In this document: piece after piece, positions 29,920-32,599 of the stretch
How positions within the stretch are numbered: the first letter of the stretch is position 1
Layout: each line of letters opens with the position of its first letter
Assembly (NCBI GenBank): GCA_030426265.1
Contig: JAUHYP010000006.1
Span: forward strand, 62,001-126,000
Origin: Gammaproteobacteria bacterium
GTDB taxonomy: Bacteria; Pseudomonadota; Gammaproteobacteria; Xanthomonadales; SZUA-36
Reading direction: 5' to 3'
Length of the DNA: 64,000 nt
Position numbers and translations under genes: made by a program
Notes under the pieces: model-generated
Told to the model about the DNA's origin: nothing
The model's input: the letters and a program-made list of their open reading frames with translations, nothing else
Databases searched by the model: none

Positions 29920-31062
29920 TCAGGCGTAACGGCGCAGGCTCGGGTCGATGCGTTCGGCCCAGGCGTCGATTCCTCCCTCCAGCACCCACACCCGCTCGAA
30001 GCCCGCTTCGTGCAGCAGCCGCCAGGCGCGCTCCGCGCGGGCGCCCTTGTGGCAGGTGACCACCCAGGCGCGGTCGCGCGGCAACTCGTCCAGGCGCAGG
30101 GGCAGTTCGGGCAGGGGAATCTCCAGGGCGCCGTCCAGGCGCGCGATCTCCAGTTCGTGCGGATTGCGCACGTCCAGCACACCGGGCGGGCCGGCCCCGA
30201 CGCGCGCGTCATATAGGTCCTCCGGCGACATCGAGGGCGCCCGAACCTCTGCATCCGCCGGCGCGTCGCCGCAGAACGCCACGGTGTCCACGGGCGCGGT
30301 GATGCGGGGCGAGACCCCGCAGACGGGGCATTTCGGGTCCCGGCCGATCCGTAGCTCGCGCAGGCCCGACCCCAGGCCGTCGAACAGCAACAACCTTCCG
30401 ACCAGGGGCTGTCCCTGGCCCAGGATCAGCTTGATCGCTTCCAGGGCCTGCAGCGAGCCGATGATGCCCGGCAGCACACCCAACACGCCACCCTCGGCAC
30501 AGGAGGGCACGGCGCCGGGCGGCGGCGGCTCCGGGAACAGGCAGCGGTAACAGGGGCCCTTGCGCGCGTCGAAGACCGACACCTGGCCGTCGAAGCGCAG
30601 CACGCTGCCATGGACCAGGGGTATGCCCGCGAGCACGCAGGCGTCGTTGACCAGGTAGCGCGTCGGAAAATTGTCGCTGCCATCCACCACCAGGTCGTAC
30701 CCCCCGATGATGTCCATGACATTGTCCGCGACCAGTCGCACCGGGTGGACCACGACATTGACGTGGGGATTGACCCCCTCGAGGCGCCCGGCGGCGGCCT
30801 CACCCTTGGAGCGATCCACGTCCCCGGTGGCGTACAGCACCTGGCGCTGGAGATTGCTCAAGGACACGGTGTCGTCGTCCACCAGCCCCAGGGTGCCGAC
30901 ACCGGCGGCGGCGAGGTAGAGGCCGATCGGCGAGCCCAGGCCCCCGGCGCCCACGCAGAGCACCCGGGCGGCCTTCAGTTTCGCCTGGCCCTCCATGCCG
31001 ACCTCGGGCATGACGAGATGCCGGCTGTAGCGAGTGACCTCTTCCTGCGACAGTGGGTTCAT
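29920..31062 (-). CDS. moeB: MoeB/ThiF-type adenylyltransferase fused to rhodanese
   Basis: 380 aa. E1-like domain: [12 protein letters not shown] (about 11-22), nucleotide loop [20 protein letters not shown] (about 37-56), and [16 protein letters not shown]. Zinc cysteines lie at C171/C174 (CYRC) and CPVCG later; Cys188 sits in the SCAE motif. The C-terminal rhodanese domain has its active Cys337 in TCHKGARA. These enzymes adenylate the C-terminal Gly of MoaD or ThiS and can load sulfur. Fusion to rhodanese is common. Divergent from a BNR/ThiS-like pair, with no moa, moe or thi genes nearby, so the client may be the neighbour at 32288. Symbol chosen by similarity; ThiF is possible. Confidence 0.88.
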
Positions 31063-31113
31063 GCGTCTATATTAGTGGGCGGGGTAGCGGTTGGCATGGG
31101 CCGGAGGCAAACG

Positions 31114-32226
31114 ATGGCTGGGGTACGAGTGCTCGTGGGCACCCGCAAGGGCGCATTCATCCTGACGTCGGACGAAGGCCGGCGATCCTGGGAAATCGAG
31201 GGGCCGCATTTCGCCGGCTGGGAGGTGTATCACATGACCGGTTCGCCGGCGGACCCGGACCGGCTCTGGGCCTCGCAGGTCAGCGACTGGTTCGGCCAGG
31301 TCATCCAGCGCTCCGACGACGGTGGCAAGACCTGGGACGCGGTGGGCAACGCGTTCGCCTATCGCGGCGAGGTGGGCACCCACCAGTGGTACGACGGCTC
31401 GCAGAAACCCTGGGAATTCAAACGGGTCTGGCATCTCGAGCCCAGCCTGGACGATCCGCACACGATCTGGGCCGGCGTCGAGGACGCGGCCCTGTTCAAG
31501 TCCACCGACGGCGGTGACAACTGGACGGAACTGCCCGGCCTGCGTCACCACGGCACGGGCCCGAATTGGATGCCAGGCGCCGGTGGCATGTGCCTGCACA
31601 CCATCATGCTGGATCCGCACCGGCCGGAACGGCTCACCATCGCCATCTCCGCGGCCGGCTGTTTCCGCAGCGAGGACGGCGGCGCCACCTGGACACCGGC
31701 CAACAAGGGCCTGGTCTCGAAGATGCTGCCGGACCCGGAAGCCGAGGTCGGTCACTGCGTGCACAAGATCGATTTCCACCCGGACCATCCGCAGACCCTG
31801 TTCATGCAGAAGCACTGGGACGTGATGCGCTCCGACGATGCCGGCGCCACCTGGCGCCGCATCAGCGGCAACCTGCCCAGCGACTTCGGCTTCCCCATTG
31901 CCGTGCACGCCCACGAGCCCGAGACGGTGTACGTGATTCCGCTCAAGAGCGACTCGGAGCGTTTTCCGGTGGACGCGAAGCTGCGCGTATTCCGCACGAC
32001 CCGGGGGGGCGACGACTGGGAACCGCTGACCCGCGGCCTGCCCCAGGAGCACGCCTACGTGAGCGTGATGCGCGATGCCATGGCCGTGGATCGCCTGGAC
32101 GACTGCGGCATCTACTTCGGCACGACCGGCGGACAGGTCTACGTGTCCCCGGACGGCGGCGACCACTGGCAGGCCATCGCCGAGCACCTGCCCACGGTGC
32201 TGTCGGTGGAGGTTCAGACCCTGTGA
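31114..32226 (+). CDS. BNR/Asp-box beta-propeller (sialidase-like) protein
   Basis: 370 aa starting at the ATG at 31114, 6 nt after a GGAGG site; an ATG at 31096 is less well placed. At least six Asp boxes of type S-x-D-x-G-x-x-W are spaced along the chain (near residues 67, 129, 186, 240, 296, 347), giving a predicted beta-propeller. No signal peptide and no FRIP or other sialidase catalytic motif, so it is probably cytoplasmic and not a glycosidase despite the likely label. It is followed 61 nt later by the MoaD/ThiS-like gene and appears co-transcribed. TATATT (31068-31073) is a candidate -10. Confidence 0.85.
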
Positions 32227-32287
32227 GCGGCGCGATACCGTTCCTCGCCTTCCCATTCCGGCACGCCCGGGGCGAACCGGCAGTCCG

Positions 32288-32599
32288 GTGACGACCCGGG
32301 GCAACGTGGAAGTCCAGCTTCCGCTGCTGCTGAGCCGCCTGGCCAGGACCGGGTCATCCGTCCACCTGGCCGTTTCGCCGCCGGTGACCCAACGCCGCGT
32401 CCTGGACGCGCTCGAAGAAGCCTACCCGGCCCTGGGCGGCACCACTCGGGACCGCGACAGCGGGCGGCGGCGCGCCTACCTGCGCCTGTTCGCCTGCGGC
32501 GAGGACTGGTCGGACCGTTCCCCCGACGAGGAATTGCCCGAGGCCGTGGCGTCCGGCCGCGAGCCCTACCTGATCATCGGGGCCATGTCGGGTGGGTGA
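32288..32599 (+). CDS. MoaD/ThiS-like sulfur-carrier protein with C-terminal Gly-Gly
   Basis: 103 aa from GTG at 32288, the only plausible start in the frame after the BNR stop. It opens with a beta-grasp-like VEVQLPLLLSRLAR strand-helix, has an Arg-rich loop at about 53-61, and ends IIGAMSGG. The terminal Gly-Gly is the hallmark of ubiquitin-like carriers activated by MoeB/ThiF enzymes. It is longer than E. coli MoaD (about 81 aa) and ThiS (about 66 aa). Neighbours: the beta-propeller upstream, a serine hydrolase starting inside its stop (8-nt overlap), and a divergent MoeB-rhodanese. Function unknown; a carrier for sulfur transfer or protein tagging is inference. Confidence 0.75.
   Translation: MTTRGNVEVQLPLLLSRLARTGSSVHLAVSPPVTQRRVLDALEEAYPALGGTTRDRDSGRRRAYLRLFACGEDWSDRSPDEELPEAVASGREPYLIIGAMSGG

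Follow-up and report, generated by a model that had tools for sequence, protein, structure and literature searches.

A conserved pair of an Asp-box propeller and a ubiquitin-like protein, with a linked E1, as a probable undescribed sulfur-transfer system

The window analysed here, a stretch of 64,000 nucleotides from a gammaproteobacterial genome (G000, contig C36, positions 62001-126000; 3.64 Mb in 103 contigs, completeness 97.67%), carries three genes that probably belong to an undescribed system of sulfur transfer. On the minus strand, 29920-31062 encodes a 380-residue MoeB/ThiF-type adenylyltransferase with a C-terminal rhodanese (P0001, the E1), recognized from Pfam, PDB relatives and motifs. 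On the plus strand follow a 370-residue Asp-box (BNR) propeller at 31114-32226 (P0002), recognized from a sequence and fold match to PDB entry 3b7f, its Asp-boxes and conservation in four groups, and a 103-residue protein at 32288-32599 (P0003), which starts with GTG, ends in MSGG and is assigned as a β-grasp ubiquitin-like carrier (Ubl) from its AlphaFold2 model, a fold match to SAMP1 and the GG of its relatives. A gap of 61 nucleotides, read directly from the plus-strand sequence (32227-32287), separates the propeller stop from the Ubl start. The original prediction, made from the sequence alone, had placed all three genes correctly, and obvious membrane parts are absent from all three proteins. 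Below, G-numbers denote the genomes of relatives and L-numbers denote fetched loci.

The propeller and the Ubl recur as a pair in many bacteria. Scanning genome contigs with the propeller confirmed at least 581 relatives, and the loci of the best 80 (68-74% identity) were searched for the Ubl by tblastn. Record titles of these 80 name Proteobacteria, Planctomycetes, Acidobacteria, Gemmatimonadetes, Actinomycetota, Chloroflexi, Myxococcota, Verrucomicrobia, Armatimonadetes, Eremiobacterota/WPS-2, Rokubacteriota, Bacillota and Bacteroidetes; many are contigs of metagenome-assembled genomes, and single phylum assignments may be wrong. A Ubl is present in 75 of the 80 loci and in 75 of the 76 with room for one (at least 330 nucleotides downstream), the exception being L026; the four further loci without it have only 14-304 nucleotides left downstream. 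Its match starts within 60 nucleotides of the propeller stop in 70 of the 75 loci, and in 66 the two genes overlap by 4 nucleotides (NTGA), in contrast to the gap in the window. Seventy-three of the 75 Ubls end exactly in GG. Among 61 relatives (G000 included), a Ubl occurs in seven and a close propeller in the same seven (Fisher P = 2.3e-9, ignoring kinship); a propeller search of these genomes found three distant propellers besides. The pairing of propeller and Ubl is not due to chance, which bears out the statement in the original prediction that such genes are paired in several unrelated genomes; the Gly-Gly end that it pointed out is conserved.

The association extends to more distant propellers (about 33% identity), which go with a different Ubl ending in GG, on either side. 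Relatives of the propeller were found in 47 plasmid records, of which 17 were fetched. All nine from Burkholderiales and Pseudomonas plasmids (H7-H14 and H16, with 31-36% identity; H15 was not fetched) encode an 89-residue Ubl upstream of the propeller; where this gene is annotated, in three records, its name is 'MoaD/ThiS family protein'. Eight of these Ubls end in GG, and for the ninth, L103, the match spans the full 89 residues. The window Ubl found no match on the plasmids; the plasmid Ubls were located through the propeller neighbourhood. Each of the three distant propellers of the order-level relatives also has an adjacent Ubl ending in GG (downstream in G039, upstream in G047 and G050), and a Ubl lies downstream of the propeller in Arthrobacter L102, where it ends in VAGG, and in Nonomuraea L097. 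A phage origin was considered and rejected, as no propeller match was found in 50,697 phage records and only two weak ones (24-30%) in viral contigs.

The propeller contains five exact Asp-boxes (at residues 67, 130, 186, 240 and 345) and a degenerate one at 295, so that of the six boxes originally counted five are canonical and the sixth is not. Its best solved relative is 3b7f, Ralstonia eutropha Reut_B4987, a member of the same family (sequence E 9.8e-71; fold E 3.5e-30, TMt 0.83), which is tabulated with seven blades, five Asp-boxes and function not known (PMC2716378). By analogy with 3b7f, and from the strand pattern of a relative's model, P0002 would likewise have seven blades. Databases call such proteins 'exo-alpha-sialidase' or 'sialidase family protein', and GH74 xyloglucanases come after 3b7f in the fold search, as would be expected of an ordinary glycosidase with an unrelated small neighbour. 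We consider this reading extremely improbable: P0002 has no FRIP-like motif of GH33 sialidases, just as the original prediction had reported no sialidase catalytic motif, its only Pfam matches over the cut-off are to repeat-type families, no NCBIfam model passes its cut-off, and the propeller co-occurs with the Ubl.

Conservation of the propeller is high, with a mean column identity of 79% over 37 close relatives, and 58 columns keep one residue in at least 90% of 52 propellers from four groups. The columns kept in all four groups include K12, H162, H217, Q232, H234, H265, D280 and R320, while conservation of H40 and H107 is limited to the close group. Strand positions were read from a model of L059, a chain in which these positions hold identical residues. 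There, the predicted strands taken to open successive blades carry H40, H107, H162, H217 and H265, and K12, H234, D280 and R320 lie outside strands. The first strands of the blades line the channel of a propeller; since conserved residues sit on them, we infer a putative central pocket lined by His and Arg.

The small protein is identified mainly by its predicted fold. On its own, the window Ubl has no match to Pfam ThiS and matches SAMP1 at E 0.094. Among 67 aligned members, 19 match Pfam ThiS at E<=0.1 (best 0.0014), and a profile of the 67 finds CysO (4n6e, E 0.072) and SAMP1 (E 0.13) weakly in the PDB; of the distant Ubls, L128 and L102 pass the ThiS cut-off and L093 falls below it. The AlphaFold2 model has a mean predicted local distance difference test score (pLDDT) of 88.3, with the last three residues below 50. 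All four Foldseek matches at E<=0.001 are archaeal SAMP1 (best E 2.9e-6), followed by CysO, MoaD-type and Urm1 entries, and a second aligner gives Z-scores of 13.6 for SAMP1, 11.4 for CysO 4n6e, 10.8 for Urm1 7q5n and 8.3 for MoaD 1fm0. The model therefore points to a β-grasp protein of the SAMP1/CysO/Urm1/MoaD fold, in keeping with the MoaD/ThiS-like character first suggested for it, though Pfam ThiS does not match.

Two Pfam domains pass their cut-offs in the E1, ThiF at E 8.1e-83 and Rhodanese at E 2.5e-16. In the PDB, its relatives at E<=1e-20 comprise ThiF, MoeB, Uba4 and ubiquitin-type E1s, the nearest chains being ThiF, MoeB and Uba4. It contains GAGGLG at 38, NLQRQ at 70, DGSDN at 127, CxxC at 171 and 245, PSCAEGG at 186 and a CHKGAR loop at 337, which we take to be the functional motifs of an E1 (nucleotide loop, Arg motif, zinc CxxC pairs and rhodanese active-site Cys). 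The domain matches and motifs agree with the MoeB/ThiF-rhodanese fusion originally described. Finer assignment is less clear-cut: two NCBIfam equivalog models for MoeB or MoeZ fall below their cut-offs (434 bits against 449 for NF006444; 431.7 against 647 for MoeZ, NF005902), and the MoeB subfamily model NF004281 is the only one of the MoeB/MoeZ type whose cut-off is passed (308.8 against 266). A defence role, as in E1-E2 anti-phage systems, was considered through PADLOC and rejected, as the matches fall within the ThiF part of E1s, and the propeller and Ubl have none that would mark a system-specific partner.

A search of the window genome (E<=0.001) found no ThiF-family gene besides this E1. 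The only ThiS-family protein over the cut-off there is a MoaD on another contig, beside MoaE and adjoined by open reading frames (ORFs) that by eye resemble moaA, moaC and TusA. The original remark that no moa, moe or thi genes are visible is thus true of the window and not of the genome. Because the E1 is the sole ThiF gene found and MoaD and MoaE are encoded elsewhere, it should also charge MoaD and is probably not private to the pair. A MoaD elsewhere was among the findings that the original prediction had counted against itself; it had coupled this with a pair that never co-occurs or a GG end that is not conserved, and here the pair does co-occur and the GG is conserved.

An E1 is nevertheless linked to the pair. 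In all seven pair-bearing relatives the only ThiF gene found (E<=1e-20) adjoins the propeller, and it belongs to two lineages. G000 and G002 have the E1-rhodanese, divergent from the propeller, whereas G001, G005, G007, G029 and G017 have a different E1, upstream and co-directional, with no rhodanese match in the three scanned. In G017 the E1 is separated from the propeller by one ORF, and the ends of two contigs hold the propeller and the Ubl, probably through an assembly break. Full-length kin of this second E1 (61-73%, query aside) are confined to those five among the 61 relatives; the others match at 35-41% over the ThiF part only. More distant full-length relatives (41-44%) occur in the pair-bearing L135, L137, L141 and L148, away from the pair. 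Outside the relatives, an E1 lies in 6 of the 80 loci against 0.28 expected from the ThiF gene density in 50 of the 80-locus genomes (P = 5.4e-7).

In a 51-row E1 tree, where L149, L153, L155 and L156 sit on long branches, the 'adjacent' label must have changed at least five times (gains or losses). The tree contains a cross-phylum clade (support 99/97) of the E1s of the window, G002, L010, L013, L016 and L022 with those of the pair-less G003 and G004. A 23-row tree without host E1s had suggested one pair-linked clade of E1-rhodaneses; the larger tree refutes such single co-inheritance, because the L038 E1 groups with E1s that are not beside the pair and the L069 E1 stands apart. ThiF genes occur in 48 of the 50 pair-bearing genomes searched, a share similar to that among the relatives at large (55 of 61), and this therefore proves little. 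MoaE is present in all seven pair-bearing relatives, so none of these genomes has an E1 that would serve only the pair. The link between E1 and pair is real but looser than that between propeller and Ubl: the co-occurrence with a MoeB-rhodanese raised in the original prediction lies above chance, but the E1 is not exclusive.

Several known systems offer parallels. MoeZR of mycobacteria thiocarboxylates MoaD1, MoaD2 and CysO, one E1 serving several carriers (PMC3227635), and MoeZ charges carriers including the one for BexX in BE-7585A biosynthesis (PMC5321127). The window genome would be like both in that one E1-rhodanese charges several GG-ended carriers, and the CysO of the CysO/BexX complex (4n6e) is itself a fold match of the Ubl (Z 11.4). 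The carriers of those systems reportedly work with a cysteine synthase or thiosugar synthase rather than with a propeller. MoaD-MoaE and ThiS-ThiG are dedicated pairs of carrier and acceptor, as the Ubl and propeller would be, and MoaD 1fm0 is again a fold match; their acceptor is not a propeller, and the window locus has no moaE-like gene. YCF48 and sortilin are Asp-box propellers like P0002 and weaker fold matches than 3b7f. Entries with a bound peptide, YCF48-D1 and sortilin-neurotensin, are among these matches, presumably with a C-terminal tail in the propeller, and by analogy may be a precedent for a propeller that holds such a tail; we know of no sulfur carrier for YCF48 or sortilin.

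Neighbourhoods 4a-4e of Iyer et al. 2006 (PMC1779556) also combine a ThiS/MoaD-like protein with an E1-rhodanese outside thiamine and molybdenum cofactor (Moco) operons, in a sporadic distribution described there as suggesting lateral spread. Their clusters include genes for a JAB peptidase, a cysteine synthase, an AMP ligase or sulfate assimilation; none of these was recognized by eye near the window genes or as recurrent in the 80 loci, no profile search having been made. The words 'propeller', 'sialidase' and 'BNR' are absent from PMC1779556, and in a β-grasp survey (PMC1949818) the one mention of a propeller is in a figure legend on domain architectures. No account of the propeller-Ubl pair was found in the literature searched, most subscription journals lying outside it. 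The adjacency of the two genes is already visible in public annotation; the present analysis adds how general it is, that the GG is conserved and that an E1 is linked to the pair.

We propose that propeller and Ubl function together as a unit, that the E1 serves this unit by thiocarboxylating the Ubl, and that the propeller uses the sulfur; we put the probability of this reading at about 0.5. The E1 would adenylate the C-terminal glycine of the Ubl with ATP, and its rhodanese C337 would hand over persulfide sulfur to give Ubl-COSH. This would dock on the propeller, an acceptor enzyme with a role like that of MoaE, ThiG, CysM or BexX, which would move the sulfur to a small molecule in its putative His/Arg-lined centre. 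In the window genome the same E1 would charge MoaD too. In MoaD-MoaE, ThiS-ThiG, CysO-CysM and carrier-BexX the carrier's partner is the acceptor enzyme, and we favour charging by the E1 with the propeller as acceptor because of these partners and the multi-carrier precedent of MoeZR. The sulfur-carrier module of the original prediction thus keeps its steady pair, its GG and its E1 linkage, but has to accommodate an E1 that is probably shared.

A serious rival, if an unlikely one, is conjugation or regulation, in which this E1 would activate the Ubl as a modifier like SAMPs or Urm1, with the propeller as its target, receptor or conjugation factor. The best fold matches of the Ubl are indeed archaeal SAMP1, Urm1 and SAMPs serve both jobs according to literature abstracts, and the E1 beside the pair in five relatives appears to lack a rhodanese, judging from the three scanned. 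Yet one fixed partner encoded with its carrier is the pattern of a sulfur acceptor, the conserved polar residues of the propeller look like those of a pocket, and no recurrent E2, JAB or protease gene was noticed in the 80 loci, in which profiles were not used. By analogy, sulfur transfer to a propeller acceptor seems a better fit than tagging of a propeller target.

Other findings weigh against sulfur transfer by an E1-charged Ubl. No E1 lies within the fetched flank in 74 of the 80 loci, and G003 and G004, of the same genus as the window genome, lack the pair and show other genes after their E1. Together with the sole ThiF gene alongside a distant MoaD and MoaE, and with the grouping of the L038 E1, these would suit a housekeeping Moco E1 that is near the pair by coincidence or co-transfer, the Ubl being charged by any host E1. 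The adjacency in seven of seven relatives and in six loci where 0.28 were expected, through two E1 lineages, makes this distinctly unlikely. At the C terminus, the Ubls of L039 and L078 carry residues after the GG (GGCD and GGQWV), and that of L097 stops before it. Such exceptions might be read to mean that the Ubl is a structural subunit, binding the propeller non-covalently with its GG a relic, which is very unlikely given the exact GG in 73 of 75 close relatives and likewise in diverged Ubls. The Rhodobacterales propellers L092, L096 and L101 (about 40% identity), Streptomyces L091 and the more distant L106 and L107 have no Ubl nearby, and clustering of the 80 loci gave no recurrent substrate gene. 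Finally, the original prediction had looked to a predicted complex, and a tethered propeller-Ubl fold (34 rows, 3 of them propeller-only; pLDDT 77.2, predicted template-modelling score 0.67) left the tail disordered (tail block pLDDT 31), with no docking seen from these three propeller-only rows.

Known thiocarboxylate carriers feed few pathways: Moco, thiamine, cysteine, thioquinolobactin and pyridine-2,6-dithiocarboxylic acid (PDTC), thiosugars and tRNA. If a propeller so common and so well conserved, yet named as a sialidase, regularly works with a Ubl, many annotations are wrong, and an unrecognized sulfur metabolite or modification may exist. More tentatively, at odds somewhat short of even, the pair could define a new class of sulfur carrier in about a dozen phyla, in which an Asp-box propeller with a His/Arg centre takes thiocarboxylate sulfur for an undescribed sulfur compound, and in one family the pair's E1 may have displaced the housekeeping Moco E1.

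Several observations concern the surroundings of the pair. A common third gene was sought by clustering 758 ORFs from the 80 loci and rejected, as beyond the pair there were clusters read by eye as YciI/DGPF-like (six loci) and ECF-sigma-like, beta-lactamase-like and HxlR-like (five each); the E1 accounted for four loci, and several large clusters were overlapping wrong frames. Genes for YciI, VOC and RNA polymerase sigma-factor proteins are found close to the pair in L095, where they are annotated, and by eye in L034, L061, L062, L064, L065 and L088; nothing on an ECF42/DGPF/BNR association was found in the literature searched. Extra residues after GG, as in L039 and L078, would require trimming, which is said to occur in QbsE. 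The propeller genes of G007 (L121, 4058-4813; two pieces, one TAG, middle missing) and G029 (L122, around 3864-4208; a run of N) are broken or misassembled, and the Ubl frame beside each is open. In Rhodobacter sp. CZR27 (L101, 589-2770 and 2989-4116) the propeller, from the group without a Ubl, is divergent from egtB and egtD, annotated as ergothioneine genes, a neighbourhood that may hint at sulfur chemistry.

In the window, a serine hydrolase gene at 32592-33623 (plus; Pfam Beta-lactamase E 3.1e-28; signal-like N terminus by eye) starts 8 nucleotides inside the end of the Ubl gene, and none was called after the Ubl in G002. On the far side of the E1, a Peptidase M14 zinc carboxypeptidase is encoded at 26915-29548 (plus), with two look-alike C-terminal stretches, WFDPQRNGEGF and WYDPQRSGEGF. 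The E1 of G003 adjoins a small gene resembling the DUF3144-type gene of the window, and the G004 contig begins at its E1.

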